The translations under genes and the position numbers were made by a program. Shown piece after piece: positions 1,555 through 15,693 of a stretch of DNA of 64,000 bases (position 1 is its first letter; each line of letters starts with the position of its first letter). The stretch lies in assembly GCF_001011155.1 (NCBI RefSeq), contig NZ_CP011480.1, forward strand, positions 62,001 through 126,000. Direction: 5' to 3'. Source of the stretch: Hoeflea sp. IMCC20628 (lineage in GTDB: Bacteria > Pseudomonadota > Alphaproteobacteria > Rhizobiales > Rhizobiaceae). The notes under the pieces were generated by a model. That model did no database searches. It had not been told where the DNA came from and saw only the letters and a program-made list of their open reading frames with translations.

Positions 1555-2372
1555 GGCACTGTAAACTTAACGCCTTGAAACCAACATTTGGGCGTGAAGC
1601 ACTGGTTCATGCGGCGTGAAGGCGCGCAATTTGGTGCCACGTTTTCATGGCTGCTTTTCGCAGTTCGCGATGGTGGGCGGATAGAATATCGTGGCGGGGA
1701 ATGTGAAAGAGGTTTGCGATCGGGTCGTGGATGGACACGAAACACTGAAGCTGTCGCGCTGACTTGAAGCGCTTCATGATCCTCTCCCGTCGTCGGACGG
1801 GCTGATGAGAGTTCTCCGCCCGATTGTTCAATCCCTTGTGAGAGCGATGCTCGACGCCGGGCATGATCTCCCGCTTCGCCGCGCCATAGGAGCGCAGCTT
1901 GTCGGTGATCATCACACGCGGCGAACGGCCTTGCCCTTTCAGGATCTTGCGCATCAAACGTTTCGCAGCCTTGGCATTGCGGCGACTTTGCACCAGCACG
2001 TCGAGAACAAAGCCGTCCTGATCGACGGCCCGCCAAAGCCAGTGTTTCTTTCCACCAATGGTGATGACAACCTCATCAAGATACCATTTGTCGCCGAGCC
2101 TGCCGGCAGATCGCCTCCGGATATCATTGGCAAAGTGTCTACCGAATTTCTCAGCCCAAAGTCGAACGGTCTGATGAGAGACGATGACACCACGCGCTGC
2201 CAGCAGATCCTCGACCATCCGCAGGCTGAGCGGAAACCGGAAATAGAGCCAAACGGCATGGGCAATCACCTCCGCTGGAAATCGATGGCGACGATAAAGA
2301 GGATCACGCGTAAATCTGGTCATTCCGCCAAATCCCACATTTTGATCGATGTCCGGTTAACGTTACAGTGCC
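1555..2372 (-). mobile_element. IS6-family element, complete
   Basis: The 818-bp element is bounded by imperfect terminal inverted repeats: GGCACTGTAAACTTAACG on the left and GGCACTGTAACGTTAACC read inward from the right. It contains one transposase gene on the minus strand. The 8 bp on either side (CGTCGATC and ATTCACTG) are not a target duplication, as expected when IS6-family cointegration and later deletion have altered the flanks. The right end interrupts another IS6-type transposase (2373-2813). A near-identical left half recurs at 18957. Confidence 0.85.
1607..2323 (-). CDS. tnpA: IS6-family transposase (238 aa)
   Basis: This is the DDE transposase of the surrounding IS6 element. The N-terminal helix-turn-helix region (FRFPLSLRMVEDLLAARGVIVSHQTVRLW) is followed by the DDE domain with WYLDEVVITIGGKKHWLWRAVD (first Asp), ITDKLRSYGAA (second Asp) and GLNNRAENSH (Glu). 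The start chosen is the ATG giving MTRFTRDPLYRRHRFP. It is preceded by a GGCGGA-type ribosome site; a GTG five codons earlier is the alternative. The length is normal for the family and no disruption is seen. Its C-terminal third differs fully from the chimeric relative at 19006. Confidence 0.9.
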   Translation of the reverse strand: MTRFTRDPLYRRHRFPAEVIAHAVWLYFRFPLSLRMVEDLLAARGVIVSHQTVRLWAEKFGRHFANDIRRRSAGRLGDKWYLDEVVITIGGKKHWLWRAVDQDGFVLDVLVQSRRNAKAAKRLMRKILKGQGRSPRVMITDKLRSYGAAKREIMPGVEHRSHKGLNNRAENSHQPVRRRERIMKRFKSARQLQCFVSIHDPIANLFHIPRHDILSAHHRELRKAAMKTWHQIARLHAA

Positions 2373-2813
2373 ATTCACTGCCATCAGGCCGGCTAGATTG
2401 GCGCCGCTCTTGTCGATGACCACTCGGTCCGGCACGCCGCTCGTGCCAATAGCCTGCTTGAAAAACCTGCGGGCTGCGGCAAGGGCACGGCGTTCAGAAA
2501 GCATGAAATCAAGGGTTTGGCCGTCCCGATCGACCGCGCGGTAAAGGTAAGTCCACTTGCCCCGGACCCGTATGTATGTCTCGTCCATCCGCCAGGAACT
2601 TGCAGTTCCCCGCTTCCGGGTTTGGGCATTTGCAGCAATCAAAGGCGAGAATTTCACCACCCAGCGGTTAAGCGTCGCATGGTCAACGACGATACCATGT
2701 TCCGCCCTAATCTCTTCAAGGTCGCGATACGACACCGCATAGCGAACATAGAAAAATACCGCGTACAGGACCACGGCCTTCGGGTAGTGCACACCTTTGA
2801 AATCTATCACCAT
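2373..2813 (-). pseudogene. IS6-family transposase (second type), 3'-truncated
   Basis: The frame starts at MVIDFKGVHYPKAVVLYAVFFYVRY and carries the HTH plus the first catalytic Asp (WRMDETYIRVRGKWTYLYRAVD) and the second (VIDKSGANLAGLMAVN). It then runs straight into the inverted repeat of the neighbouring IS6 element at 2372, losing the catalytic Glu and C-terminus. It is a different subgroup from the interrupting element. Inactive. Confidence 0.85.
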
Positions 2814-2899
2814 TATGCCCAACCCGCGCAATCGTTTCTTCCGACCGTGCTCTGCAATATCGCCTGTCCAGCTGGAAGCAATGAAGTTTGCGACACAGC

Positions 2900-3168
2900 C
2901 GGCAAAATTGCTGATCATCGATGAACTCAGCTATGTCCCCTTGTCATCGACAGGGCAGAGCTTCCGTTCGAGACTATCTTACAGCGCTACGAGCGCGGCT
3001 CTACCATCGCGACGTCCAAACTACCGTTTGAGGACTGGATGTCGGTGCTGGGATCGGAGCGCCTGACCGGGGCCGTGCTTGACAGGTTGACCCACCACGT
3101 CAGCATCCTGACCATGAACGGCGACAGCTATCGCCTGAAACAGTCCGCCGCCCGCCGTCGTATCTCTT
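2900..3168 (+). pseudogene. IstB-like ATPase remnant, frameshifted (IS21 family)
   Basis: The frame first reads AKLLIIDELSYVPLSSTG (Walker B region). After one or more frameshifts near 2960-3010 it continues as ERGSTIATSKLPFEDWMSVLGSER and LTGAVLDRLTHHVSILTMNGDSYR. That block matches the C-terminal half of the IstB at 23.3-24.1 kb. The N-terminal P-loop half is missing. The scrap ends about 10 bp before the operator of the tetR-type gene, so it marks the left breakpoint of the catabolic block. Confidence 0.8.
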
Positions 3169-3178
3169 GCAAATTACA

Positions 3179-3198
3179 ACATGAACAAGTATTCATGT
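3179..3198. promoter_or_regulatory. TetR-type operator 1 (ACATGAA-N6-TTCATGT)
   Basis: A perfect inverted repeat of 7 bp arms around a 6-bp centre (CAAGTA) ends 4 bp before the start codon of the TetR-family gene. The same arms and spacing recur at 12410 and 12854. Its position over the translation start and probable promoter suggests autorepression. The binding assignment is inferred from position and repetition. Confidence 0.75.
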
Positions 3199-3202
3199 TT
3201 TT

Positions 3203-3793
3203 ATGTCGACCAACACTTACCCGAGAACCAAAAGAGGCGTCGCCCGGCGCGAGCAGATCCTGCGCGCAGCCGAGGCCATGATAGGCGCGCAGGGATTTTC
3301 CGCGGCCTCGATCGCCGACATCACCCGCCATGCGAAAACGGCTTTGGGCACGTTCTATATTTATTTTTCCAGCAAGGAGGATGTCTTCCGGGAGCTGGTA
3401 CTGGAAATGGGACAGCTGACCCGCGCCGTTGTCACCCAAGCGGTGGCGGACGCGCCGAACCGTCTGGACGCCGAGCGTGACGGACTGAAAGCATTTTTGC
3501 GTTTTGTCGCCGAGCGCCCGTCGCTGTACCGGATCGTCGAGGAAGCCCGCTTCATCGATGCTGATGCCTACAAAGCCTATTTCACCAATTTCGCCAAGGC
3601 CTATGCTGTGCAACTTGACGAGGCGGCCGCAGCAGGCGAATTGCGGCCCGGTGACGCCGAGGTACGCGCTTGGGCGCTGATGGGCATCGCCAAGACTCTG
3701 GGCGAGCGTTATGTGCTGTGGGGCGATACATCCGACATTGATCATGTGGTCGACGAAGCCTTCTCGATGATCCGGAATGGCCTCGCGCCATGA
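3203..3793 (+). CDS. TetR/AcrR-family transcriptional regulator
   Basis: The 196-aa protein has an N-terminal TetR HTH (about residues 15-62: ILRAAEAMIGAQGFSAASIADITRHAKTALGTFYIYFSSKEDVF). An all-helical C-terminal ligand and dimer domain follows. The gene heads an operon with acyl-CoA enzymes, overlapping the next start by 4 bp (ATGA). The palindrome ACATGAA-N6-TTCATGT touches its 5' end, and two more copies lie between the two ABC transporter operons, making it the likely repressor of all three units. The ligand is probably an acyl-CoA or acid handled by the neighbouring enzymes; this is inference. Confidence 0.9.
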   Translation: MSTNTYPRTKRGVARREQILRAAEAMIGAQGFSAASIADITRHAKTALGTFYIYFSSKEDVFRELVLEMGQLTRAVVTQAVADAPNRLDAERDGLKAFLRFVAERPSLYRIVEEARFIDADAYKAYFTNFAKAYAVQLDEAAAAGELRPGDAEVRAWALMGIAKTLGERYVLWGDTSDIDHVVDEAFSMIRNGLAP

Positions 3794-4572
3794 CCACACG
3801 GGTCACCACCCAAACGGTTCATTTGCCTGACGGCACGCTGTGCGCGCGGTTAACCCTGGCCGCGGGCCGCGCCAATTCGCTCGAACCCGGACTGCTGTCA
3901 GATCTTGGCTCAGCGCTTGATTGGGCTGAAGCGCAGGACGCCAAGGTCATTCTGCTGTGCGGCGGGCCGAATTTTTCAAGTGGCGGTGATGTGCGCGCCT
4001 TTCATGTTGCATCGCTTAGCGGTGAAGCCGCAACCTATGCCAACGAGGTTGTTCTGCGCCTGCAGACAATCGTCGCCCGCCTGATCGCCATGCCGCGTCT
4101 GGTGGTGGTGGCGGCGCGTGGGGCCATCACCGGCGGGTCTGCCGGGCTCCTGTTTGCCGCCGATCTTGCAGTGCTTGCGCCCGACGCATTTGTGCAGCCT
4201 TATTATGCAAAGGTCGGCTTTGCGCCCGATGGCGGCTGGACAGCCCTACTGCCTGAACGCATCGGCGCCGGGCAAGCGCTGGAATGGCTTCAGTCCGATC
4301 GGCGGCTTATCGCTCCTGCGCTGTGCGAGGCAGGATTGGCCACTGCGATTTCAGATACTCCCGAAGAGATGGCGACCGAGCTTGCCGCAAACGGGGAAAT
4401 GGGCAGCCGGCTGGCGGCCAAGGGCCTGATCTGGGATGACGCACGCCGCGCCCGGATCAATGCGCGGCTGGCGGCCGAGACTGCAGCGTTTCTTGACCGG
4501 ATCGTCCGGCCTGATACGGCTCTGGGCATGTCACGATTTCTAGAGCGCATTGGAGGCAAGGCCGATGTTTGA
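3790..4572 (+). CDS. Enoyl-CoA hydratase/isomerase (crotonase superfamily)
   Basis: The 260-aa protein has the crotonase fold. The oxyanion-hole segment is NFSSGGDVRAFH (about residues 57-68), and the second oxyanion block is ARGAITGGSAGLLFAADLAVLAPDA (about 112-136). Its second acidic catalytic position is not obvious: the usual GGCE-type sequence reads GGSAG, so activity may be isomerase-, hydrolase- or lyase-like rather than classical hydration. ATGA overlap with the regulator upstream and overlap with the acyl-CoA ligase downstream indicate translational coupling. It probably acts on the CoA thioester made by the ligase. Confidence 0.88.
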   Translation: MTTRVTTQTVHLPDGTLCARLTLAAGRANSLEPGLLSDLGSALDWAEAQDAKVILLCGGPNFSSGGDVRAFHVASLSGEAATYANEVVLRLQTIVARLIAMPRLVVVAARGAITGGSAGLLFAADLAVLAPDAFVQPYYAKVGFAPDGGWTALLPERIGAGQALEWLQSDRRLIAPALCEAGLATAISDTPEEMATELAANGEMGSRLAAKGLIWDDARRARINARLAAETAAFLDRIVRPDTALGMSRFLERIGGKADV

Positions 4573-6049
4573 CACTATCCCGGACATGGCCGCTAAGCGC
4601 GCCGAGATCTCTCCGAACTCTATCGCCTTTATCGAAGCGGGCAGCGGGCGGGAGTGGCGGTTTTCCGAGATCAACAGCGCAGCCAATGCGGTCGCCGCCG
4701 GGCTGGGGCAAGCTGGTTTGTGCTCCGGTGACCGGCTGGCGATTCTGTGCCTCAACCGGGTCGAATTCTTCATCACGCTGTTTGCCTGTCAGAAAACCGG
4801 CATCATCCTGTGCCCTCTCAACTGGCGGCAGCCGGCGGCTGAACTGATTGAAACACTCGAGCCTGTGGGTGCCAAGGCGCTCATCCATGACGCGGCTCAG
4901 GCCGAGTTGGCCGGGGATGTGGGGAGTGTCTGCGGAATCCGAAATTTTGCCATCGAAACCGATATCTCCGCATGGATCGAAACGGGAGCAACAGTGCCCG
5001 CGACGAAAATTCTCCCGGACCAGCCATGGTATCTGCTATTCACATCGGGAACGACAGGCCGGCCAAAGGCGGTGATCCAGACCGCGCAGATGGCCTGGGC
5101 CAATGCGGTCAACATTTCCCAGGCCACGCGGATGACCGCGGACGACCGGTCGGTCAATTTCCTGCCACTGTTTCACACTGCCGGTATCAATCTCTACACC
5201 CTGCCGCTGTTTCTGCTGGGCGGCTGCTCGACGGTTTTGCTGAAGTTCGAGCCGGGCCAGATTTTCGATCTGCTTAAGCAGGGCAAGATCACGCAGTTCT
5301 TCGGCGTTCCTGCGATCTATCAGGTCTTCAGCCTGTTGCCCGATGTCGCCGAGATCAACTGGAGCGTGATCCGCTGCGGCTGCGGAGGCGCACCGCTGCC
5401 CGAACCGTTGATCAGGCTTTTTGCCAGTCACGGCGCCAAGGTCCTCAACGGCATGGGCATGACCGAAACCGGGCCGACCGTGTTCCTGATGGATCCGGAG
5501 AATGCCGAGCGGAAGATCGGTTCCGTCGGCCGGGCGCAGATGCTGACCGAGATGCGGCTTGAGGGCGTTGCGGCCGGCGAGCGGGGCGCCGGCGAGATCC
5601 AGCTCAGGGGCCCCAATATCACGCCGGGGTATTACCTGAACGAAAGAGCCACGCGCGACGCCTTTACCGAAGACGGCTGGTTGCGCACGGGCGATGTCGG
5701 GCGGCGCGATGAGGATGGCTACATCTTCATCGTCGACCGGATCAAGGACATGTATATTTCCGGCGGCGAGAACGTCTATCCGGCCGAAGTCGAGCGGGTG
5801 CTCAACGAACATGCCGACGTGCTGGAAGCAGCGGTGATCAGCATGCCGGACGCCAAATGGGGCGAGGTCGGTGCGGCCTTCATCATTGCCCGCCCGGGCG
5901 CCACCCTCGACCCGGCGGAACTCAGGAGCTGGAGCCGGGAGCGGATGGCCGCCTACAAGGTGCCGGTCAAGGTAACGCTGGTGCAGGATTTCCCGCGCAC
6001 GGCGGCGGGAAAGGTCCGCAAACCGGAGCTGAGGACCCTGCTGCCATGA
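4565..6049 (+). CDS. AMP-forming acyl-CoA synthetase (fatty acid or aryl-CoA ligase type)
   Basis: The 494-aa ANL-superfamily enzyme carries the P-loop YLLFTSGTTGRPKAV, the A5 motif NGMGMTETGP, A7/A8 GWLRTGDVGRRDEDGYIFIVDRIKDM, and the A10 lysine in PRTAAGKVRKPEL. It activates a carboxylic acid with ATP to acyl-AMP and then acyl-CoA. The start at 4565 is preferred over the ATG at 4550 because GGAGG (4552-4556) lies 8 bp upstream. The start overlaps the end of the hydratase gene, and the stop overlaps the next start (ATGA). It is the first committed enzyme of the operon; substrate unknown. Confidence 0.9.
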   Translation: MFDTIPDMAAKRAEISPNSIAFIEAGSGREWRFSEINSAANAVAAGLGQAGLCSGDRLAILCLNRVEFFITLFACQKTGIILCPLNWRQPAAELIETLEPVGAKALIHDAAQAELAGDVGSVCGIRNFAIETDISAWIETGATVPATKILPDQPWYLLFTSGTTGRPKAVIQTAQMAWANAVNISQATRMTADDRSVNFLPLFHTAGINLYTLPLFLLGGCSTVLLKFEPGQIFDLLKQGKITQFFGVPAIYQVFSLLPDVAEINWSVIRCGCGGAPLPEPLIRLFASHGAKVLNGMGMTETGPTVFLMDPENAERKIGSVGRAQMLTEMRLEGVAAGERGAGEIQLRGPNITPGYYLNERATRDAFTEDGWLRTGDVGRRDEDGYIFIVDRIKDMYISGGENVYPAEVERVLNEHADVLEAAVISMPDAKWGEVGAAFIIARPGATLDPAELRSWSRERMAAYKVPVKVTLVQDFPRTAAGKVRKPELRTLLP

Positions 6050-6402
6050 AGATCGAACTTGCAACTACGTGGACGCCAAGCCAGGCGGACTTCGACCTGT
6101 TCGCGCAGATTTCCGGCGATGACAATCCGATCCATGTGGACCCGGAATTTTCGGCGCGCACCGCCTTCGGGCGCACGGTCAGCCATGGCATGCTCATTTA
6201 CACCAAGCTGTGGGGATTGTTGACTGCCGCTCATCCGGATGTCTCGCAGACAGGCCAGACGATGATGTTTCCCAATCCCTGCTACACCGGCGAGCCGGTT
6301 GATCTGGTGATCAAAGGTGAGTGTCCGGGCAGCCTGTCAGTGCGGGCGGTGAGATCCGCCGATGGTGCGGAGCTTCTGGTCGGCGAAACGGAGGTCGCGT
6401 GA
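6046..6402 (+). CDS. MaoC-like hotdog dehydratase, first copy
   Basis: The 118-aa single-hotdog protein has the R-hydratase signature FAQISGDDNPIHVDPEFSARTAFGRTVSHGMLIY (about residues 23-56). This includes the Asp and His dyad of (R)-specific enoyl-CoA hydratases. It starts in an ATGA overlap with the CoA ligase. MaoC proteins hydrate trans-2-enoyl-CoA to 3-hydroxyacyl-CoA. It is followed directly by a second protein of the same size, and the two may form a heteromeric hydratase. Confidence 0.88.
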   Translation: MKIELATTWTPSQADFDLFAQISGDDNPIHVDPEFSARTAFGRTVSHGMLIYTKLWGLLTAAHPDVSQTGQTMMFPNPCYTGEPVDLVIKGECPGSLSVRAVRSADGAELLVGETEVA

Positions 6403-6758
6403 TGCAGGTGGGACAATCAGCAAGCATCAGCCGCAGCTACAGCCGCGCCGATCTGGAAGGCTTCGCCGGATTGAGCGGATCGGGTGTTCCCGAAACCATT
6501 CCGGAACCGTTGATCGCAGCGCTGTTTTCCTACCTGCTGGGTGTGGAATTGCCGGGCCCGGGTACGAATTATCTCAAGCAGCAACTCAGCTTTCTGGCGC
6601 CGGCTGCGGCCGAGCCCGAACTGACGGCGAAGGTGGAAATTACACGGCTGCGCCCGGACAAGCATCTGGTCGACCTCTGGGCCACCTGCACGGATGCAAA
6701 TGGCGTGCTGATCTGCGAAGGCCGCTCGCTGGTCAAGGCCAAGGACGTGGCTGCCTAA
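6402..6758 (+). CDS. MaoC-like hotdog protein, second copy (no obvious catalytic dyad)
   Basis: The 118-aa protein begins MQVGQSASISRSYSRADLEGFAGLSG and starts on the last base of the previous stop codon. It has the hotdog pattern (PEPLIAALFSYLLGVELPGPGTNYLKQQLSFLAPA) but not the D-x-NP-x-H dyad of the first copy. It resembles the degenerate partner subunits of two-component MaoC hydratases. Such a pairing would fit the equal lengths and the tight coupling. The role is inferred from context. A short 23-bp gap separates it from the convergent hydrolase gene. Confidence 0.75.
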   Translation: MQVGQSASISRSYSRADLEGFAGLSGSGVPETIPEPLIAALFSYLLGVELPGPGTNYLKQQLSFLAPAAAEPELTAKVEITRLRPDKHLVDLWATCTDANGVLICEGRSLVKAKDVAA

Positions 6759-6781
6759 GCAGGGTTCGCAAACGGGTGGGT

Positions 6782-7543
6782 CTAGAGGCTGACGGCAAAC
6801 TCGACGAGCGTTTTTGCGAAGGCTTCAGGCTCTTCCAGATGTGGGGAATGGCCTGAGTTTTCGAATACGTGCATGCGGCCGCGGGGCGCGGTAGCCGCCA
6901 GCCATTCAGCCGCTGACTTCGGATAGACCCGGCTGCGTGCACCGCAGCTTGCCAGCAGCGGGCAGGGCAGATTTCCGATCAGCTCTCTCATGTCCATGCC
7001 GACCAGCGCTTCCCACATGGCAATCATTTTTGCCGGATCATTGGCGAGGATCTGGTCAAGCGCATCCTGCCGGCTGTAGCCCGGTGCGCCATCGCGCTGG
7101 GCAGACATGGTGATGGCGATCGCTTCGGTCATGCCGCGCCAGTCGGAGATCATGCGCTCGGTGGTGGCGGTGAGATCGCTCTCGCCCTGATCGATCAGCC
7201 CGTGCGGCCAGTCCGCGTTGCAGCCTAGCTTGGGGCTCATATCCACGGTCATCAGCCCTGCGATCCGGTCAGCGCCGAATTGCTCGATATACTGCCAGAC
7301 GACGGCCGCGCCCATCGACCAGCCGACAAGCACAACATCGCGCAGGTCCTGTGCCTCCAGCAGATCGGCCAGCGTTCGCGCTGACGCGTAAAGCGATGGC
7401 TCGACCATCGCCTGCGCGCCGTGTCCGGGAAGGTCAGGCGCATGGCAGTCAAACCCTGACGGCAATCGGGCAACGAGATGATCGAAGATCGAGCCGCGCA
7501 TGGTCCAGCCGTGCAGCAGAACCACCGGCCGCCGCCGGGGCAT
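6782..7543 (-). CDS. Alpha/beta hydrolase
   Basis: The protein of about 253 aa starts MPRRRPVVLLHGWTMRGS. The HGW oxyanion motif, the nucleophile elbow GWSMGA and the C-terminal catalytic His in NSGHSPHLEEPEAF are all visible. The start at 7543 is the first ATG; a TTG at 7561 overlapping the permease stop is an alternative. It is the last gene of the first transporter operon, transcribed from the operator at 12410. It could cleave an ester, lactone or thioester linked to the imported substrate. The specific substrate is unknown. Confidence 0.87.
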   Translation of the reverse strand: MPRRRPVVLLHGWTMRGSIFDHLVARLPSGFDCHAPDLPGHGAQAMVEPSLYASARTLADLLEAQDLRDVVLVGWSMGAAVVWQYIEQFGADRIAGLMTVDMSPKLGCNADWPHGLIDQGESDLTATTERMISDWRGMTEAIAITMSAQRDGAPGYSRQDALDQILANDPAKMIAMWEALVGMDMRELIGNLPCPLLASCGARSRVYPKSAAEWLAATAPRGRMHVFENSGHSPHLEEPEAFAKTLVEFAVSL

Positions 7544-7557
7544 GATCTGCACGGAAG

Positions 7558-8610
7558 TCAATCTTCCGCCCTTAGACGTCCGACAATCCCGGTTGGAAAG
7601 AAATAGACACTGAGAATGAAGAGCACGCCGAGCCACAACAGCCAACGGTCGGGATCAAGCAATTGCGGGATCAGCGGCAGCCCCTCGGTTGCGCCTGCCG
7701 CGACGCCCATCAGGTTTTGCAGGTAATTCTGCGCCAGCACGAAAATGGTGACACCGATCACTGCGCCATACATGGTGCCCATGCCGCCGATCACCACCAT
7801 CAGCAGGATATCGAGCATGATCTCGAAGGACAGGGTGGTGGCCGGGCCGACATAGCGCAGCCAGATGGCAAACAGGCTTCCGGCGAGAGCGGCAACGGCT
7901 GCCGACAGGCAGGTTGCGAGCGTGCGGTAGAGCACGACCCGGTAGCCGATCGCCTCGGCACGGAAATCGTTCTCGCGGATTGCCTTGAGCACCCGCCCGA
8001 ACGGCGAGTTGACGATCCGGAGCAGCAGCAGGAACAGGGCTAGCGAGGCGAAGAACACCAGATAGTAATTCAGGATCTTGCCGGTGATGGAGATGCCGAA
8101 CAGTTTGCCCAGCTTGAATGCGGGCGTGAGTTCGCGCGGGATGGAATAGTTGAGCCCGTCCTCGCCGCCGGTCAGGCCGGAAAGCTGGCTGACAAGCACG
8201 GCCACGGCGGAGGCGACAGCCAGCGTGATCATGGCAAAGAAGATCGCCCGGACCCTCAATGAAAAAAGCCCGATCAGCAGTGCCAGGATCGCTGCGGCGA
8301 CTGCGCCGGCAATGGTGCCGACGATCAGCGCATCGAAGCCGCGGCCCATATGGGTGGAGGCCAGCGCCACGCCATAGGCGCCGAGGCCGAAGAACATGGT
8401 ATGGGCGAAGCTGACAATGCCGGAATAGCCGAGCAGAAGATCATAGCTCGCGACCAGCACGATGAAGATGCAGATCCGCGCCGCTGTTTCGAGTGACCTG
8501 ACGCCCGGAAACAGGAAGGGGGCCAGGGCCAGTGCCGCGAGAATGGCAAGCAACAGGCCGGTCAGGATCAGGGAGCGCGGACGGTCGCCGGAGAGCAGGT
8601 TTGCGAGCAT
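7558..8610 (-). CDS. HAAT ABC transporter permease (LivM type), transporter 1
   Basis: The 350-aa inner-membrane protein has about ten hydrophobic segments. It carries the LivM family stretches SYDLLLGYSGIVSFAHTMFFGLGAYG and LKAIRENDFRAEAIGYRVVLYR, the latter being the cytoplasmic coupling loop. It pairs with the LivH-type permease upstream to form the membrane pore of a branched-chain amino acid-type importer. Many HAAT systems carry aromatic acids, amides or other carboxylates, so the substrate should not be assumed to be leucine. Confidence 0.9.
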   Translation of the reverse strand: MLANLLSGDRPRSLILTGLLLAILAALALAPFLFPGVRSLETAARICIFIVLVASYDLLLGYSGIVSFAHTMFFGLGAYGVALASTHMGRGFDALIVGTIAGAVAAAILALLIGLFSLRVRAIFFAMITLAVASAVAVLVSQLSGLTGGEDGLNYSIPRELTPAFKLGKLFGISITGKILNYYLVFFASLALFLLLLRIVNSPFGRVLKAIRENDFRAEAIGYRVVLYRTLATCLSAAVAALAGSLFAIWLRYVGPATTLSFEIMLDILLMVVIGGMGTMYGAVIGVTIFVLAQNYLQNLMGVAAGATEGLPLIPQLLDPDRWLLWLGVLFILSVYFFPTGIVGRLRAED

Positions 8611-8611
8611 C

Positions 8612-9643
8612 TTACTTCGCCTTCACAACGGGCATCATGCCCTGTGGCCGCCACATCAGTATCGCCGTCATCAGGGCAATGTTGGAAATCAGCGCCAGCT
8701 TGGGTTCCAGAAACGCCACGTAATTCTGCAGCAGCCCGACCAGCAGCGCGCCGATGAAGGCTCCCTCGACGGAGCCGAGGCCGCCGATGATGACGACGAT
8801 GAAGACCAGGATCATCATTTCCTCGCCCATGCCGGCGGTGATGACTTCCTGGTAGAGACCCCACATGACGCCGCCCAGACCGGCGAGCGCGGAACCTGCG
8901 ACAAACACGCCGATGAAGACCAGCCGCAACCGGTAGCCCAGCGCCTCGACCATCTCGCCATTCTGCACGCCGGCGCGGACGATGAGCCCGATCTTGGTGC
9001 GCTTGAGCACCAGCCGCATGCCCACGAACAGCACTAGGCCGAAGACAACCGCCAGCAAGCGGTATTTCTCGATGGCAGCACCGGCAAAGGTGACGGCACC
9101 CTTGAGCATTTCCGGGCGGGTGAGGTAGATCTCGTCAGGCCCCCAGATCACATGGATCATCTGTTCGATGACGATAAGACCGCCGACGGTCACCAAGATC
9201 TGCTTGAGATGCGCGCCATAGACCGGCCGCACGATTACACGTTCGAAGCCCCAGCCCAGCGCGCCGGTGACGCACATGGCAGCAACCACCGCAGCGAGCA
9301 CGGCAGCGACGTTGAGCAGCAGCGACGGTACGCCGGTCCAGCTCTCGAGCGCCACCAGGACAGAGATGCCGACATAGGCGCCCACCGAGATGAAGGCGCC
9401 GTGGCCGAAATTGATCACATCCATAAGTCCGAAGACCAGCGTCAGGCCGGAGGCCATGATGAAGATCATCATGCCCATCGCCAGACCAGAAACCGTCAGC
9501 GTCAGCCAGCTCGATGTCGAGCCGATCGACAGGAAGCCAAGAACCACCAGCACCGGCACGAGCAGCAACGGCATCGCCTTTCCGATCCTGTCGGGCAGGG
9601 AGAGTTGTGCATATTTCGGTGCGTGGTCGGGTGCGGCAGCCAT
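8612..9643 (-). CDS. HAAT ABC transporter permease (LivH type), transporter 1
   Basis: The protein of about 343 aa starts MAAAPDHAPKYAQLSLPDRIG. The LivH signature LVFGLMDVINFGHGAFISVGAYVGISV is clear, and further membrane helices extend to the C-terminus. The start at 9643 sits 2 bp after the stop of the upstream ATPase gene; the frame stays open further upstream only inside that gene. It forms the second permease of transporter 1. Confidence 0.9.
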   Translation of the reverse strand: MAAAPDHAPKYAQLSLPDRIGKAMPLLLVPVLVVLGFLSIGSTSSWLTLTVSGLAMGMMIFIMASGLTLVFGLMDVINFGHGAFISVGAYVGISVLVALESWTGVPSLLLNVAAVLAAVVAAMCVTGALGWGFERVIVRPVYGAHLKQILVTVGGLIVIEQMIHVIWGPDEIYLTRPEMLKGAVTFAGAAIEKYRLLAVVFGLVLFVGMRLVLKRTKIGLIVRAGVQNGEMVEALGYRLRLVFIGVFVAGSALAGLGGVMWGLYQEVITAGMGEEMMILVFIVVIIGGLGSVEGAFIGALLVGLLQNYVAFLEPKLALISNIALMTAILMWRPQGMMPVVKAK

Positions 9644-9645
9644 GA

Positions 9646-10368
9646 TCAATGCGCCTCCATGCTCAGGCCCATCAGGCGTTCCTGCAGACCGGCATCGCTT
9701 GCGAGTTCGGCCATCCGGCCGGCCCAAATGATCCGCCCGTCATCCATCACCGCGGCGGTGTCGCCGAGCGCCTTGGCGACGGCAAAATTCTGTTCGACCA
9801 GCAGGATCGACGCGCCCTTCTTCTTCAGGTCACGAAGCGCGCCGGCCATCGTCGAGATGATCGCCGGCGCCAGACCCTTGGTGGGTTCGTCGATCAGGTA
9901 CAATTGCCGCTCTTCAGCCATGGCGCGTGCGATCGAGAGCATCTGTTTCTGCCCGCCGGACAGATTGCCGGCTTCCGACCGCCAGAATGTTCGCAACGGC
10001 GGGAATGCTTCGAAAATCCATTCCATACGGGCCGGATCAAGCGGGCCGGATGCGGCTGCGAGGATCATGTTTTCCTCGACTGTCAGATCGGAAAAGATGC
10101 CCATGTCTTCCGGCACAAAACCTATTCCGGCGCGGGCCCGGGCAGGGGTCGGCATGGTGGTGATGTCGGCGCCGTTGAAGCGCAGGCTGCCGGATTTCGC
10201 CTGCCAGTGACCTATGATGGTGCGTAGCGTTGTGGTCTTGCCGACGCCGTTGCGCCCCAATAGCATGGTCACGCCGCCGCGCGGCACCGCCAGATCGACG
10301 CCCTGCAGGATGTGATACTGGGCGATGTCGGTGTGGATGCCGGAGAGTTCGAGGATCGGATCAGACAT
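9646..10368 (-). CDS. HAAT ABC transporter ATP-binding protein (LivF type), transporter 1
   Basis: The 240-aa ATPase has Walker A LLGRNGVGKTTTLR, the signature NLSGGQKQMLSIARA, Walker B LYLIDEPTKGLAP and the H-loop replaced by the LivF-typical LLVEQN. The start at MSDPILELSG overlaps the previous gene by 8 bp. It drives substrate import with the LivG-type partner. Confidence 0.9.
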   Translation of the reverse strand: MSDPILELSGIHTDIAQYHILQGVDLAVPRGGVTMLLGRNGVGKTTTLRTIIGHWQAKSGSLRFNGADITTMPTPARARAGIGFVPEDMGIFSDLTVEENMILAAASGPLDPARMEWIFEAFPPLRTFWRSEAGNLSGGQKQMLSIARAMAEERQLYLIDEPTKGLAPAIISTMAGALRDLKKKGASILLVEQNFAVAKALGDTAAVMDDGRIIWAGRMAELASDAGLQERLMGLSMEAH

Positions 10369-11125
10369 CTGCGAGGTCCCGTCCCATGTAAGCTTCCTGC
10401 ACAACGTCTGAGGCCATCACCGTGGCCGGGTCGCCGTCAGCGGCAAGCTCGCCATTGTGCAACACGATGATGCGGTCGGCGAGCGAGCGGATGACATCCA
10501 TCTTGTGCTCGACCAGCAGGATCGTCCGGTCGGTGTCGGCCTTGAGTTCGGCAATCAGATCAAGCACCACCGGCGCCTCGTCGACGCTCATGCCGGCTGT
10601 CGGTTCATCGAACATGTAAACCATGGGATCCAGCGCGATCAGGATCGCGACCTCGAGCTTGCGCTGGTTGCCGTGGCTGAGTCCGCCGACTTTCTGTTCG
10701 CGAAGGTCGTGAAGCCGCACCCGATCAAGCACGGCCATCGCCGCGACAGTCAGTTCGGTGTGGGAACTTGCCATGGAGAACAGGTTGAAGCCCATCCGGC
10801 GCCGGGCCTGGATCACCAGGCGGACATTTTCGAGCACCGTGAGGTTGGGAAACAGATTGGTCAGCTGGAAGGCGCGCCCCAGCCCCTTGCGGCAGCGCTG
10901 GGCCACCGGGTCGCGTGTCACATCCTCGCCCATCAGCCGCACGGTCCCGGCCGAAGCGGTGATCTGTCCGGAGATCAAGTTGAAATAGGTTGTCTTGCCT
11001 GCGCCATTCGGCCCCACGATCGCGGTGAGTTCGCCAGCCTTGAAGCTGCAGGTGACATTGTCCACTGCCACATGACCGCCAAAGCGGACCGTCAGGCTGT
11101 CCGTTTCCAGAAGCGTCTGTGTCAT
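10361..11125 (-). CDS. HAAT ABC transporter ATP-binding protein (LivG type), transporter 1
   Basis: The 254-aa ATPase starts MTQTLLETDSLTVRFGGHVAV. It carries Walker A IVGPNGAGKTTYFN, the signature region GLSHGNQRKLEVA, Walker B MVYMFDEPTAGM and the switch His in LLVEHKMD. The signature LSHGNQ is an altered LSGGQ, common in this subfamily. A stem-loop separates it from the binding-protein gene upstream, so it may be made at a lower level. Confidence 0.9.
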   Translation of the reverse strand: MTQTLLETDSLTVRFGGHVAVDNVTCSFKAGELTAIVGPNGAGKTTYFNLISGQITASAGTVRLMGEDVTRDPVAQRCRKGLGRAFQLTNLFPNLTVLENVRLVIQARRRMGFNLFSMASSHTELTVAAMAVLDRVRLHDLREQKVGGLSHGNQRKLEVAILIALDPMVYMFDEPTAGMSVDEAPVVLDLIAELKADTDRTILLVEHKMDVIRSLADRIIVLHNGELAADGDPATVMASDVVQEAYMGRDLADV

Positions 11126-11147
11126 CGCGCACCTATCGGCAGGGGAT

Positions 11148-11183
11148 AAAAATGCCGCGGACACCATGAGGGGCGTCCGCGGC
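11148..11183 (-). terminator. Stem-loop between binding-protein and ATPase genes, transporter 1
   Basis: On the minus strand GCCGCGGAC (from 11183) pairs with GTCCGCGGC (ending 11154), followed by ATTTTTAT. It looks like an intrinsic terminator but lies inside the operon, 8 bp after the binding-protein stop. Partial termination or mRNA stabilisation at this point would raise the binding protein above the membrane parts, a known arrangement for ABC importers. Confidence 0.75.
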
Positions 11184-11191
11184 GTTAAGGC

Positions 11192-12367
11192 TTAGTTGCG
11201 GACAGGAATATCCATGTCGTCAATGCCGATCTCGCGGACCAGAACCGGGACGCCATAGTCCTTGCCGTCCTGGATCTCGGTGCGGAAATGATACATCGAC
11301 TGCAGTGCCTGATGGTCATCCTTGCGGAAACGCATCAGGCCCTTTGGCGTCTGCCATTCCATGCCTTCCATCGCGGTGATAAGTGCTTCAGTGTCGGTTG
11401 ACCCGGCCTTCTTGATCGCCTCGACCACTGCAATGCCGGCTGCCATGCCGCCCGCTGTGAAGAAGTCAGGCGGCGAGCCGAAGCGGGCCATGTGTTCCTT
11501 GACCAGCCAGTCATTGACCGGGTTTTTCGGAATCTCGTAGTAATAGTAGGTCGCACCTTCCATGCCCGGCAGTTCCTTGTAGGCCGTCAGCGCCGCCAGG
11601 ATGTTGCCGCCGGTTGCGATCTCGATGCCGAAGCGCGAGGGATCCATGGCGTTGATCTTGCCCATCGGATTTCCGCCGCCGGCCCAGATGATGAACAGCT
11701 TCTTCTTGCCTTCAATATCGCCCATGGCGTTGAAGATGCGTTCCGCTGCAGCGGTGAAGTCGGTGGTGTCGGTGGGGACATATTCTTCAAGCGCTATCTT
11801 GGCACCCGAGCCAGCCAGCGCCTCGCGGAAGGCTGCCACTCCGTCGCGTCCGAAGGCATAATCCTGCGCCAGCGTTGCGATTGTCACGCCTTCGCCACCC
11901 AGGGCGACAGCGTTGGAGATCGCATCCTGCGAGGAGTTGCGGCCGGTGCGGAAAATGAACCGGTTCCAGTTCTCGCCGGTGATCGAATCGGCCACGGCAG
12001 GTTCGACGATCAGGATTTTTTCATATTCCTGGGCGACCGGAAGCATTGCCAGCGCCACGCCGGAACTGACCGGTCCGACAGCGATGTCGGCTTCGTCATC
12101 GCCATAGGCCTCGGCCAGCATGGCCTTGCCGATATCCGGCTTGATCTGGGTGTCTTTCTCAATCACGACGATTTTTTCGCCATCGATCTCCATGGTGCCA
12201 CCAGTGGCGTATTCGAGGCCAAGCATCAGTCCGTTATGCGACTGGGCTGCATAGGCCTCAAGCGCTCCGGTCTTTCCGTAAACATGTGCAATCTTGATCT
12301 CGGCGAGCGCCGGTACGGCCAGCATTGCTGCGGCCACACCGGTTGCCAGTATCGTTTTCATCTTCAT
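11192..12367 (-). CDS. Periplasmic substrate-binding protein (HAAT family), transporter 1
   Basis: The 391-aa protein has an N-terminal signal peptide (MKMKTILATGVAAAMLAVPALA, cut after ALA) and the type I periplasmic binding fold: EIKIAHVYGKTGALEAYA at the start and FIFRTGRNSSQDA near residue 135. A strong GGGGAGGAG ribosome site lies 7 bp before the ATG. The operator palindrome at 12410 is 43 bp upstream. It differs clearly in sequence from the binding protein of transporter 2, so the two importers probably see different ligands of one pathway. Confidence 0.92.
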   Translation of the reverse strand: MKMKTILATGVAAAMLAVPALAEIKIAHVYGKTGALEAYAAQSHNGLMLGLEYATGGTMEIDGEKIVVIEKDTQIKPDIGKAMLAEAYGDDEADIAVGPVSSGVALAMLPVAQEYEKILIVEPAVADSITGENWNRFIFRTGRNSSQDAISNAVALGGEGVTIATLAQDYAFGRDGVAAFREALAGSGAKIALEEYVPTDTTDFTAAAERIFNAMGDIEGKKKLFIIWAGGGNPMGKINAMDPSRFGIEIATGGNILAALTAYKELPGMEGATYYYYEIPKNPVNDWLVKEHMARFGSPPDFFTAGGMAAGIAVVEAIKKAGSTDTEALITAMEGMEWQTPKGLMRFRKDDHQALQSMYHFRTEIQDGKDYGVPVLVREIGIDDMDIPVRN

Positions 12368-12409
12368 ATCGGGTCTCCTCCCCTAAGCGAACAACGGTAC
12401 AAATATGAA

Positions 12410-12429
12410 ACATGAATCAATATTCATGT
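12410..12429. promoter_or_regulatory. TetR-type operator 2 (ACATGAA-TCAATA-TTCATGT)
   Basis: This is the same 7-6-7 palindrome as operator 1, placed 43 bp upstream of the binding-protein gene of transporter 1. Its 6-bp centre is the exact reverse complement of the centre of operator 3, so sites 2 and 3 are mirror copies 424 bp apart. Confidence 0.75.
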
Positions 12430-12853
12430 CAATATTCGGACCAGCCCTCCAGCCGCTGTCCGGTCCATCAACTTTTGCTGCTGCGAGGACGGAAGAATGT
12501 GCGGTTCGCGGTGGAGCTATGGCTGAATTTAGGTGATGAGGCATCATTGAGCGGCGCGGCATTGGTTGGGATCGCTGTGAGCGATGCCGTCGTTGAGTTT
12601 GGCACCTTCGATGGGGCGAAACGACATTGCCAAGTCGTTTGTCTCAGCTCGCGGGGGCAACTTCCTCTCGTTATCCGAAACGCGGACGTCCAAGAACCTG
12701 GCAATGCCGCCGGTAGCAACAGCCTACAACTTTTTGTCGGCTCAACCCTTGCAAACCGGACGACAGGAAAGGGCTGTTTGGTCCTTCAACCTCGACGTGA
12801 CAAAAGCACGGAGGCGCAGAGACGACGATGCCGAGACGGTGAGCAGAATATTG
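12430..12853. other. 424-bp spacer between two divergent operators, no recognised gene
   Basis: Frames stay open here (one across 12412-12948), but none has a family pattern, a credible ribosome site or alphaproteobacterial codon usage. The interval must hold the divergent promoters of both transporter operons. A small IS remnant is possible but I could not identify one. Confidence 0.5.
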
Positions 12854-12873
12854 ACATGAATATTGATTCATGT
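12854..12873. promoter_or_regulatory. TetR-type operator 3 (ACATGAA-TATTGA-TTCATGT)
   Basis: The third copy of the palindrome lies 107 bp upstream of the first ATPase gene of transporter 2. Its arms are identical to those of operators 1 and 2. It is the candidate control site of the rightward transporter operon. Confidence 0.75.
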
Positions 12874-12979
12874 TTCATGTGGAAGTTCGGTATTCAAATG
12901 CTGGTACCTATCTATCGACACGGCCTGGCCTTGCACTTGCGCACGTGACACGAGGACGAATGACGACGTTGGGGGAAGA

Positions 12980-13729
12980 ATGGCAATCGCGCTTCAGGCC
13001 AAGGGATTGACAAAGGAGTTCAAGGGTTTCGTTGCCGTGAACGACGTCGATCTGTCGATCGAAAAGGGAACCATCCACGCGCTGATCGGCCCGAACGGTG
13101 CCGGCAAGACGACCTGTTTCAATCTGCTGACCAAGTTCCTGCAGCCCACCCGTGGCACGATCACTTACGAGGGCCGGGACATCACCCGCATGAAGCCCGC
13201 CGAAATCGCGCGGCTGGGCATGGTGCGGTCTTTTCAGATCTCGGCCATTTTCCCGGATCTGTCCGTCTTGCAGAACGTGCGAGTGGCGTTGCAGCGTATG
13301 CGCGGGGAAAGTTATGACTTCTGGCGGTCGGACCGCCTATTGTCGAAATTCGACGATCAGGCCAAGGGCTATATCGACGAAGTCGGGCTCACCAAATTCA
13401 CCAATGAACGCGCCGCCGCCCTGCCCTATGGTCGCAAGCGCGCGCTCGAGATCGCAACCACATTGGCGCTGAGCCCCGACATGCTGCTGCTGGACGAACC
13501 GATGGCGGGCATGGGGCGCGAGGATGTGGAGCTTATCTCCCAGTTGATCCGCCGGATCGCAAAAAACCGCACCGTGCTCATGGTGGAACACAACCTGTCG
13601 GTCGTGGCCGACCTGTCGGACCGCATCACCGTGCTGGCGCGCGGTGAGATTCTAGCCGAAGGCACCTACGCTGAGATTTCGAAGACCCCCGCGGTGATCG
13701 AGGCCTATATCGGAGCGAGCCATGACTGA
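12980..13729 (+). CDS. HAAT ABC transporter ATP-binding protein (LivG type), transporter 2
   Basis: The 249-aa ATPase starts MAIALQAKGLTKEFKGF after a GGGGGA ribosome site. It shows Walker A LIGPNGAGKTTCFN, the signature region ALPYGRKRALEIATTLA, Walker B MLLLDEPMAGMG and the switch His in LMVEHNLS. It is the first gene of the rightward operon, which unusually begins with the two ATPases and puts the binding protein third. It overlaps the next gene by 8 bp. Confidence 0.9.
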   Translation: MAIALQAKGLTKEFKGFVAVNDVDLSIEKGTIHALIGPNGAGKTTCFNLLTKFLQPTRGTITYEGRDITRMKPAEIARLGMVRSFQISAIFPDLSVLQNVRVALQRMRGESYDFWRSDRLLSKFDDQAKGYIDEVGLTKFTNERAAALPYGRKRALEIATTLALSPDMLLLDEPMAGMGREDVELISQLIRRIAKNRTVLMVEHNLSVVADLSDRITVLARGEILAEGTYAEISKTPAVIEAYIGASHD

Positions 13730-14438
13730 TGCGGCGAAGGTGCTATTAAAGGTCAGCGGTCTTCAGGGCTGGTATGGCGAAAGTCATGTTCTGCACGGTA
13801 TCGATTTCGAGGTGCCTCAGGGCGAGGTTGTCACCCTGCTGGGCCGTAACGGGGCGGGCAAGACCTCGACATTGCTCGCGATCATGGGGATTTTGGGCAA
13901 GCGGACCGGCTCCGTCACATTTGCCGGAACCGAACTGATCGGCATGCAGCCGCGCCACATCGCCCGGTTGGGCATCGCACTGTGTCCCGAGGAACGCGGC
14001 ATCTTCTCGTCGCTCAGTGTCGAGGAAAACCTGCTGCTGCCGCCGCGCATCGCCGAGGGTGGCCTGTCCATCGAACGAATCTACGATTTGTTTCCGAACC
14101 TCAAGGAACGGCGCTCCAGCAGCCAGGGCACCAAGCTTTCGGGCGGCGAACAACAGATGCTGGCGATCGCACGCATCCTGCGCACCGGTGCCAAGATGCT
14201 GCTGCTGGACGAACCGACCGAAGGGCTGGCGCCCGTCATCGTCCAGCAAATCGGCCGCACCATCGCTGCACTGAAGGACGAAGGGTTCACCATCGTGCTG
14301 GTGGAACAGAACTTCCGCTTCGCTGCATCGGTCGCCGACCGGCATTACATCGTCGATCAGGGCAAGGTCGTGGATATGATCCCCAACGACCAGCTTGAAC
14401 AGAACACTCAGAAACTCCACGACTATCTGGGTGTCTGA
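13722..14438 (+). CDS. HAAT ABC transporter ATP-binding protein (LivF type), transporter 2
   Basis: The 238-aa ATPase has Walker A LLGRNGAGKTSTLL, the signature KLSGGEQQMLAIARIL, Walker B MLLLDEPTEGLAP and the LivF-type IVLVEQNFRF. It is coupled by overlap to the LivG-type gene and pairs with it on the two permeases encoded downstream. Confidence 0.9.
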   Translation: MTDAAKVLLKVSGLQGWYGESHVLHGIDFEVPQGEVVTLLGRNGAGKTSTLLAIMGILGKRTGSVTFAGTELIGMQPRHIARLGIALCPEERGIFSSLSVEENLLLPPRIAEGGLSIERIYDLFPNLKERRSSSQGTKLSGGEQQMLAIARILRTGAKMLLLDEPTEGLAPVIVQQIGRTIAALKDEGFTIVLVEQNFRFAASVADRHYIVDQGKVVDMIPNDQLEQNTQKLHDYLGV

Positions 14439-14490
14439 CCAACAAACACCAATCAAGCGGCGCATCCGCGCTGCAAACAGGAGGAAAAAC

Positions 14491-15693
14491 ATGATCAGGA
14501 AACTCGCTATCTGCTCCGCAGCACTGGCTGCGATGACCGGCTCCTCGGCGCTGGCCCAGGATATCAATGTCAAGCTCGGCGTGCTCAACGACCGCTCCGG
14601 CATCTATGCCGACCTGTCCGGCGAAGGATCCGTCGTGGCCGCACGCATGGCCGTTGAGGATTTCAAGGCCGCCGACAAGGGAATGAAGGTCGAAATCATC
14701 TCGGCCGATCACCAGAACAAACCAGACATCGGCTCCAACATTGCCCGTCAATGGTATGATGTGGACGGCGTGAACGCGATCCTCGACGTACCGACGTCGT
14801 CGGTGGCCCTGGCCGTAGCTGACATCACCAATGAAAAGAACGGCGTTCTGATCGATTCCGGCGCCGGCTCCACATCGCTGACCCGTGAACAGTGCCGCTC
14901 GACTACAGTCCACTGGACCTATGACACCGCAGCACTTGCCACCGGCACCGGTGCGGCTATGACCAAGGCAGGCGGCAAGAAATGGTTTTTCCTGACGGCT
15001 GACTATGCTTTTGGCCACTCGCTTGAGGAAAACACCGCCCGGGTCGTCAAGGACAATGGCGGCGAAGTTGTCGGCCAGGTCAACGTGCCGTTCCCGGCGC
15101 AGGATTTCTCGTCCTTCCTGCTTCAGGCACAGGGCAGCGGCGCTGACGTGATCGGTCTGGCGAATGCCGGCGGCGATACCGTCAACGCAATCAAGCAGGC
15201 GTCGGAATTCGGCATCACTCAGGCCGGTCAGAAAATGGCCGCTCTGCTGTTTTTTGTCACCGATGTGCATGCACTGGGTGCGCAGACCGCACAGGGATTG
15301 TCGCTGACCGAAGCCTTCTACTGGGATCAGAACGACGACACCCGCACATGGTCCAAGCGGTTCGTGGACATCCACGGCGCGCAGCCGACAATGGTTCAGG
15401 CCGGCGTCTATTCCGGAACCATGGCCTATCTAGCCGCCGTTGAGGCCGTAGGCAGTGCGGATGACGGCAAGGCCGTTGTCGCCAAGATGAAAGAGATGGA
15501 ATTCAACGATCCGCTCTTTGGCAAGGTCACCGTGCGGGGCGACGGTCGTGCAATTCACGACATGTACCTGTTCGAAGTCAAGTCGCCCGACCAGTCGGAA
15601 GGTGAATGGGACCTCTACAACCAGATCTCCTCCATCACCGGCGAAGAAGCGTTCCTGCCGATGCTGGACGAGTGCGACTTCACCAAGCAGTAA
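14491..15693 (+). CDS. Periplasmic substrate-binding protein (HAAT family), transporter 2
   Basis: The 400-aa protein has a signal peptide (MIRKLAICSAALAAMTGSSALAQ) and a type I periplasmic binding fold: VKLGVLNDRSGIYADLSGEG, then VPTSSVALAVADITNEKNG and the LTADYAFGHSLE hinge region. The start at 14491 has an AGGAGG ribosome site just upstream. The sequence resembles HAAT binding proteins that take aromatic or other carboxylic acids more than classical LivJ, but this is an impression rather than proof. A strong hairpin follows its stop codon. Confidence 0.92.
   Translation: MIRKLAICSAALAAMTGSSALAQDINVKLGVLNDRSGIYADLSGEGSVVAARMAVEDFKAADKGMKVEIISADHQNKPDIGSNIARQWYDVDGVNAILDVPTSSVALAVADITNEKNGVLIDSGAGSTSLTREQCRSTTVHWTYDTAALATGTGAAMTKAGGKKWFFLTADYAFGHSLEENTARVVKDNGGEVVGQVNVPFPAQDFSSFLLQAQGSGADVIGLANAGGDTVNAIKQASEFGITQAGQKMAALLFFVTDVHALGAQTAQGLSLTEAFYWDQNDDTRTWSKRFVDIHGAQPTMVQAGVYSGTMAYLAAVEAVGSADDGKAVVAKMKEMEFNDPLFGKVTVRGDGRAIHDMYLFEVKSPDQSEGEWDLYNQISSITGEEAFLPMLDECDFTKQ

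Follow-up and report, generated by a model that had tools for sequence, protein, structure and literature searches.

The stretch of DNA analysed here, hereafter the window, comprises 64,000 nucleotides of Hoeflea sp. IMCC20628 (assembly GCF_001011155.1, contig NZ_CP011480.1, positions 62,001 to 126,000 of the forward strand). It contains a block of genes for a TetR-type regulator, several acyl-CoA enzymes and two importers, and in this block the palindrome ACATGAA-N6-TTCATGT, a putative operator of the regulator, occurs three times as an exact match. Operator 1, ACATGAACAAGTATTCATGT (3179-3198), stands at the same position in relatives and ends 4 bp before the ATG of tetR, whereas operators 2 (12410-12429) and 3 (12854-12873) belong to importer 1 and importer 2 respectively.

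Five genes of the block run along the plus strand with overlapping ends. The first is tetR (3203-3793), which encodes a predicted FadRSa-like repressor of 196 aa. It is followed by a crotonase-fold protein of 260 aa (3790-4572; PF00378) and by an AMP-binding acyl-CoA ligase (4550-6049; PF00501, PF13193), whose open reading frame (ORF) begins with the TTG at 4550 and for which translation may begin slightly later, at an ATG a few codons on. The other two are MaoC1 (6046-6402; PF01575), the hydratase subunit, whose best solved relative is the (R)-specific enoyl-CoA hydratase 1iq6, and MaoC2 (6402-6758), a partner hotdog protein that overlaps the MaoC1 stop and has no Pfam match, its assignment being to NF006045 (E=1e-19).

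Importer 1 occupies the minus strand. The gene of its solute-binding protein comes first behind site 2 (11192-12367; PF13458; solved relatives 3n0x and 3nnd), followed by a LivG-like ATPase (ORF 10361-11167; PF00005, PF12399), a LivF-like ATPase (ORF 9646-10404; PF00005), a LivH-like permease (ORF 8612-9727, likely start near 9643; PF02653), a LivM-like permease (7558-8610; PF02653) and finally an alpha/beta hydrolase (ORF 6782-7645; PF12697), for which the lengths of homologues suggest a start near 7543. Importer 2, on the plus strand, consists of a LivG-like ATPase (ORF 12863-13729, likely start near 12981; PF00005, PF12399), a LivF-like ATPase (13722-14438; PF00005), a solute-binding protein (ORF 14395-15693, likely start near 14491; PF13458; solved relative 3i09), a LivH-like permease (15769-16656; PF02653) and a LivM-like permease (16656-17633; PF02653). 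Each importer thus has the two ATPases, two permeases and Peripla_BP_6 binding protein of the HAAT (branched-chain amino acid) type. The domain matches bear out the gene content given in a preliminary description of this DNA, namely a TetR, a crotonase, a ligase, a MaoC pair and two HAAT importers, and they add the hydrolase. That description had also called the regulon complete, which is more than can be claimed, as the block has no dehydrogenase or thiolase for later steps.

The palindrome and its coupling to tetR

The three palindromes are real, exact at all three places, and they are the only exact copies in the whole genome (5,119,813 bases in 3 contigs), where 0.007 copies would be expected from base composition. 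The genome search did not find the palindrome at many unrelated promoters: beyond the three copies, all of them in the block, there was none with one mismatch and there were eight with two, and the reversed control pattern gave 2 matches in the same search. On a weight matrix, sites 1, 2 and 3 scored 28.6, 33.7 and 33.7, against a maximum of 10.8 in the remainder of the window, and the seven two-mismatch sites that were scored (of the eight) ranged from 7.9 to 19.0. Palindromes with up to three mismatches are not above chance within the window (4 versus 2.1 expected), so it is the exact copies that stand out.

Regarding the form of the sites, the arms are identical, as had been described, but the centres differ only when all sites are read on the plus strand, since site 3 repeats site 2 as its reverse complement. 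The two lie inside a perfect 33-bp inverted repeat (arms 12405-12437 and 12846-12878, with 408 nt between them) and amount to a single site in opposite orientations.

Related loci were collected by a TetR search, by DNA similarity among plasmids, by genome searches with importer 1 and with the TetR, and by a search for the TetR among plasmids (9 records). The importer 1 search covered 385 genomes of the class, of which 21 were positive including Hoeflea sp. IMCC20628 itself, and 16 of the other 20 were fetched; the TetR search covered 199 genomes of the family and gave 4 positives. The site analysis comprised 36 loci whose TetR reaches at least 45% identity, that of the window among them, and in each the best site up to 350 bp upstream was scored; loci L042-L067 (36% identity or less, or short matches) stood outside it. 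These counts are not independent, because many of the 36 loci come from close relatives and two of them (L011 and L134) share the same TetR.

Many Alphaproteobacteria share the set of TetR, crotonase, CoA ligase, MaoC1 and MaoC2 together with importer 1, and the promoters of this set carry the palindrome. A site with at most two mismatches was present in 35 of the 36 loci, within 350 bp upstream of tetR in 26 and upstream of the importer-1 binding protein in 9 more. In seven of these nine (L013, L027-L032) importer 1 comes first and tetR follows it, pointing the same way, so that a single promoter could serve both, and in L132 the site precedes an importer-1 fragment. The remaining locus of the 36, L140, has a three-mismatch site 34 bp before tetR. 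When the loci were viewed from the side of importer 1, 32 of the 33 that have such a TetR carried a site before the gene of the binding protein; in the remaining one, L120, the site belongs to the TetR operon and importer 1 comes after that operon. Among the importer-1 loci without such a TetR in the fetched stretch, none of 11 had a site with up to three mismatches (L014, L117-L119, L121-L124, L128, L130, L143). Over the 1,099,813 bases of loci scanned there were 18 further sites with up to three mismatches, six of them with at most two; three of the six fall in promoters of this type (L037, L127, L129) and the other three do not (L013, L139, L140).

Presence of the site follows the TetR within the genus as well. 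We scanned 18 genomes with the pattern AYATGAA-N6-TTCATGT, which had been widened after these sites had been seen, and found sites in all 8 TetR-positive genomes versus 1 of the 10 TetR-negative ones (Fisher p 4e-4); five of these genomes (G583, G584, G590, G591, G592) overlap loci already counted (L016, L015, L018, L017, L019). In the family, the strict form ACATGAAT-N4-ATTCATGT occurred in 2 of the 199 genomes, the genome studied here and G064, and the other three TetR-positive genomes had sites with 1, 1 and 2 mismatches.

The palindrome might instead be read by another factor, or be a structural element such as a recombination end, a terminator or an inversion end. Sites 2 and 3 do form an inverted repeat around 408 bp, as in invertible segments, but in most relatives the palindrome stands at promoters with no partner arm, its presence or absence follows the TetR, and all three sites score above 28 where the rest of the window stays at or below 10.8. 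We regard this explanation as very improbable. The main idea of the preliminary description, one TetR whose operator is common to its own operon and the two importers, is upheld: it is supported by the uniqueness of the sites, by the sites of the relatives, by presence and absence in the genus, and by an archaeal case given below. It is highly probable, on these comparisons, that sites 1 and 2 are targets of the TetR.

Some further features of the sites were seen. The ATG of tetR follows the palindrome by 3 to 6 bp in many loci (3198 to 3203 in the window), and in the archaeal locus L038 a candidate ATG of the binding protein stands at the palindrome end (1641-1661); given an ATG so close behind the palindrome, leaderless transcripts are likely. 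Two loci, L127 (10955 and 11066) and L129 (9447 and 9560), have two operator-like sites around 110 bp apart in a divergent promoter of tetR and importer 1. In L139 (Qingshengfaniella) a TetR of 71% identity is encoded at 12001-12588 with no ligase operon in the annotation, and a second one-mismatch site lies 1.9 kb on, at 14455, in an unannotated gap before choline genes. By eye, the palindrome of G064 (L135, position 9432) is just before an ORF that starts like an MFS transporter. No structured RNA was found in the window at gathering thresholds.

Importer 2 and the plasmid

Binding proteins of the importer-2 type are common, being present in 91 of the 199 family genomes at E 1e-100. Nevertheless, importer 2 was seen beside the cluster only here and in a sister species, G597, which has three sites with the same spacings (9,230/9,231 and 444 bp) in a block that is 91.8% identical over 14.5 kb; the 20 bp of the sites have thus stayed exact while their surroundings changed. 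The promoter of importer 2 was compared in four genomes (G595, G046, G590 and G591), a scan of L074-L092 being set aside because most of these loci stop short of it. In G595, which has neither the TetR nor a site, the importer-2 operon is 91.4% identical from window position 12915 to the operon end and the upstream sequence is different; in the upstream stretches of the other three no palindrome was seen by eye. Furthermore, window positions 12851-12880 are identical in 30 of 30 bases to the importer-1 operator of G594, a genome of the same genus. Taken together, the differing upstream sequence of G595 and the match to G594 show that a copy of the importer-1 promoter and operator was placed before importer 2. 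On this comparison importer 2 is a late recruit in this plasmid lineage and outside the conserved set. The preliminary description correctly placed a palindrome before importer 2, and it has to be corrected in so far as this importer is not a fixed part of the regulon.

It might be argued that only sites 1 and 2 are TetR operators and that site 3 is a passive leftover of a rearrangement, importer 2 escaping control by the inverted copy. Importer 2 is indeed absent beside the cluster in the genus members L015, L016, L018 and L019, whose DNA extends past the importer-1 operator, no consensus promoter was found in this region, and the -10 region after site 3 is by eye poorer than that after site 2. 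On the other side, the copy is perfect over 33 bp and its spacing is the same in G597. We hold a passive site 3 to be rather unlikely, and a function of site 3 in the regulon to be reasonably, though not strongly, favoured.

As for the replicon, the window corresponds to bases 62001-126000 of contig C2 (154,071 bases), which has a RepB partition gene (320 bits versus a cut-off of 201.5) and hence is very likely a repABC plasmid, to judge from this match. Contig C3 (123 kb) has a second RepB partition gene above the cut-off at 81745-82719, so it is probably a second plasmid of the repABC type. The block is flanked by ORFs for IS240/IS6-type transposases, two on each side (1607-2918, minus strand; 18353-19746, plus strand), and the whole regulon might have been mobilised together. 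The DNA at about 2900-3150, which separates the transposase ORFs on that side from operator 1, resembles by eye a broken piece of an IstB-type ATPase; an intact IstB-like ORF lies at 23345-23950. Downstream of the transposases on the importer-2 side there is an ORF of the sulfotransferase family (20680-21636).

The regulator, the enzymes and the proposed mechanism

The TetR protein has a TetR_N helix-turn-helix (PF00440, E 2.3e-13) and an all-helical C-terminal domain, and its AlphaFold2 model, with 9 helices, reached a pLDDT of 93.1. Its best solved relative by sequence is FadRSa (6el2/6en8) with E 5.6e-30, the next one being at 4.1e-9; by fold FadRSa filled the first 7 rows, with a TM of 0.93 to the DNA-bound form and an identity of around 34-35%. 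According to the parts of its description used here, FadRSa of Sulfolobus acidocaldarius is a local repressor with a 16-bp dyad as operator, it is released from DNA by acyl-CoAs, and the exchanges R73A and R86A weaken the acyl-CoA response (PMC6449355). We examined the corresponding residues, R74 and R87, in an alignment of 45 TetR rows. Both are kept in all 36 rows of at least 45% identity; over all rows, R74 is kept in 44 and R87 in 41. Since these arginines are kept and other ligand contacts of FadRSa have changed, as detailed below, the inducer is probably an acyl-CoA, held in a pocket of different shape.

Regarding the enzymes, the crotonase lacks the two usual catalytic glutamates, at the positions that we take to be theirs, and has GG-S/A-x-G and QPYY/QPFY at the matching places of an alignment of 25. 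D147, in the block PDGGW, is invariant in all 25 aligned relatives, and the crotonase domain of human CDYL also has a PDG block. The altered active-site block noted earlier is therefore present, with PDGG for the usual glutamates, but it is not a private oddity of this protein; it marks a subgroup. The catalytic motif of (R)-specific MaoC hydratases is D-x4-H. In MaoC1, D25 and H30 are among the columns kept in at least 93% of the 30 aligned rows, and the pair is absent from alphaproteobacterial MaoC2; in Bacilli (L040) a single protein has both.

From this gene content we read the system as one that takes up a hydrophobic carboxylic acid, or its ester, and activates it with CoA, the route running via an enoyl- or 3-hydroxyacyl-CoA. 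Without inducer, a TetR dimer would sit on ACATGAA-N6-TTCATGT in three promoters and keep down its own operon (crotonase, CoA ligase and MaoC1/MaoC2 hydratase), importer 1 with the hydrolase, and importer 2. The importers would bring in a carboxylic acid or its ester; the hydrolase may release the acid from the ester, and the ligase would convert the acid to its CoA thioester. An enoyl- or 3-hydroxyacyl-CoA would then be hydrated, dehydrated or isomerised by the crotonase and the two MaoC proteins. The acyl-CoA would bind the TetR and thereby release it from its operators, which would raise uptake and activation jointly. Importer 2 would be a later addition within the plasmid lineage, its own promoter region having been replaced by the copy of the importer-1 promoter and operator. 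We give a probability of around 0.7 to this explanation as a whole, that is, a local, autoregulated repressor regulon of the FadRSa type, induced by acyl-CoA, to which importer 2 was added later.

Several points weigh against it. No consensus sigma-70 promoter was found at 12350-13000, and it is by eye that a -35 box (TTGACA) was read as joined to the operator and the -10 as poor. In the nine TetR rows below 45% identity R87 is lost four times and R74 once. The FadRSa contacts K77, M101, R132, F68 and F111 are not kept; in the rows of at least 45% identity there is T/S/A/G/N at K77, A/G/T/S at R132 and V/A/L/I at M101. L024 has a site before importer 1 only and none before tetR, the one TetR-negative genus genome with a site is G594 (an assembly 75% complete), and G064 has the exact palindrome but no such TetR, the gene close to it looking unrelated. 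Finally, DNA binding, repression, the acyl-CoA inducer, the reaction order and the function of the third site are inferred from sequences and models, whereas the sites with their uniqueness, conservation and coupling to the TetR, the fold and CoA-contact arginines of this protein, and the copied operator were observed.

The nature of the substrate can be proposed only tentatively. Possible but doubtful candidates are 3-hydroxy acids, enoic acids, and oligomers or esters of these. Aromatic acids instead of such aliphatic compounds seem equally doubtful. Many HAAT importers of Alphaproteobacteria carry aromatic acids, the best solved relative of the ligase is named feruloyl-CoA synthetase / fatty-acyl-CoA synthase, and the best NCBIfam match of the crotonase is oxepin-CoA hydrolase, alternative type, at 83.8 of 300 bits and thus far below the cut-off. 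In addition, two loci with importer 1 and no TetR (L117, L118) have a pyridoxal phosphate (PLP) decarboxylase beside it and one of them also an HpaI-type aldolase. Other neighbourhoods speak, though not decisively, against aromatic acids: in L014 importer 1 lies behind a true 3-hydroxybutyrate dehydrogenase (369.8 bits, cut-off 307), in L143 a 49% relative adjoins an annotated full beta-oxidation cluster, and in Bacilli and an archaeon a KAS-III-like enzyme and a hydrolase are added. As a specific substrate, 3-hydroxybutyrate was rated low, since the dehydrogenase was found at only 1 of the 11 importer-1 loci without the TetR (L014) and not beside the operon at the other loci searched. Several of the importer-1 loci without the TetR have a sigma-54 activator and a hydrolase. 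Among the matches listed in our literature searches, which extended to bacterial kin of FadRSa and TetR regulons of Hoeflea, there was no paper on this gene set and none naming 3N0X, 3NND or RPA4397, so that the solved relatives of importer 1 could not be linked to a ligand.

Distant relatives and known systems

Beyond the Alphaproteobacteria, the closest parallel is archaeal. In L038, a metagenome-assembled genome of Thermoplasmata, genes for a binding protein, two permeases, two ATPases, a hydrolase, a KAS-III-like enzyme (316.4 bits, cut-off 315), a ligase, a MaoC and a TetR lie in one direction, and ATATGAATAGTGATTCACAT heads the run behind a TATA-like stretch, with a matrix score of 20.2. 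As this site had already been seen in the first scan, a fresh out-of-sample test was made in 389 genomes of its phylum, four of which, including that of L038 itself, had the TetR at E 1e-30 or better. The new case L198 has the same gene run, with MaoC ahead of the site, and ACATGAAAGGTGGTTCATAT at its head differs from the window pattern by 1 mismatch; it scores 25.0, versus -1.2 for the next best in 15.4 kb and 9.4 for the top of 15 shuffles. Thus an operon of similar build, with an almost identical palindrome at its head, is present in two Thermoplasmatota genomes. In L197 the operon is cut by the contig end and the operator scan gave 3.0, and L199, a 35% relative with ligase, hydrolase and KAS and no importer in 20 kb, had no site (best 11.0 versus shuffle 15.2).

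Among the other distant loci the operator score before tetR was clear in L142 (18.4) and in L140 (16.4, but 18.3 elsewhere in the locus), and the score was marginal in L037 (14.6; top shuffles 15.2 and 12.0) and L041 (11.9; 13.2 and 21.9). The scans of L035 (-2.3), L036/L201 (-3.6), L039/L202 (0.5), L040 (4.9) and L200 (7.6, shuffle 17.4) showed no site, and that of L141 (5.4, highest shuffle 9.5) was weak or negative. In a TetR tree, from which L190 (no match) was left out and near-duplicates were thinned, FadRSa groups with the TetR of L199/G696 (100/99), and L038, L197 and L198 group together (94/90), apart from them.

These comparisons would fit one old module, formed by a FadRSa-type TetR, an ATGAA-N6-TTCAT core, a HAAT importer, a hydrolase, a ligase and a MaoC, which Alphaproteobacteria and Thermoplasmatota would have in common together with its operator, and Bacilli, Actinomycetes and Sphingomonads in a weaker form. 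Such a module would spread on plasmids, could enlist a further importer via the copied 33-bp promoter/operator and would handle imported carboxylic acids or esters of a class not yet described, possibly oligomers of 3-hydroxy acids. We put this forward as a conjecture, with the odds somewhat against it. Should the proposed regulon hold true, its few genes, with operator and sensor both defined, would give a handle on the cargo of many marine alphaproteobacterial HAAT importers, which is a long-standing gap, and any of three proteins (TetR, ligase or binding protein) could report the substrate, making a previously unstudied uptake system testable. It would also be a clean case of regulon growth by copying its own promoter, and would connect an uptake regulon of bacteria with an acyl-CoA regulator of archaea that has been called unrelated to bacterial FadR, the DNA site being kept across domains.

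Among known systems, the HAAT importers of Rhodopseudomonas for aromatic and for fatty or dicarboxylic acids belong to the same transporter family, and in the part of that study consulted many such binding proteins bound hydrophobic acids, and none had leucine-type compounds as its primary ligands, weak cases apart (PMC3223731). FadRSa is the closest solved fold, with its arginines R73/R86 kept as R74/R87, and it is likewise described as a local repressor of a gene block with a ligase and hydrolase-type enzymes; nevertheless, the portion of the paper used places it in archaea among lipid genes and names no importer (PMC6449355), whereas here a bacterial plasmid block with HAAT importers is concerned. 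Furthermore, the other ligand contacts have changed in the Hoeflea TetR, and FadRSa stands in the tree apart from the importer-linked archaeal rows.

PA3973 of P. aeruginosa is also a TetR beside acyl-CoA genes, and its own promoter has TGAATCC-GGATTCA, with the TGAAT-N4-ATTCA core of most sites here. It differs in having more than 300 ChIP peaks with a 13-bp motif, versus three sites here, and an operon of acyl-CoA dehydrogenase and thioesterase for which the excerpts of its description mention no importer (PMC9736018). The TetR-type FadR of Bacillus (3whb, 5gp9) is likewise an acyl-CoA-responsive TetR of similar overall fold (TM 0.80-0.81), but has only about 18-20% identity to the Hoeflea TetR. 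Its operator is of the TGAATGA type. Its ligand entry differs from that of FadRSa, according to the section of the FadRSa paper used here (PMC6449355). In kind, the block would be an acyl-CoA-TetR regulon, and what appears to be new is the link to importers, the operator common with archaeal relatives and the copied operator.

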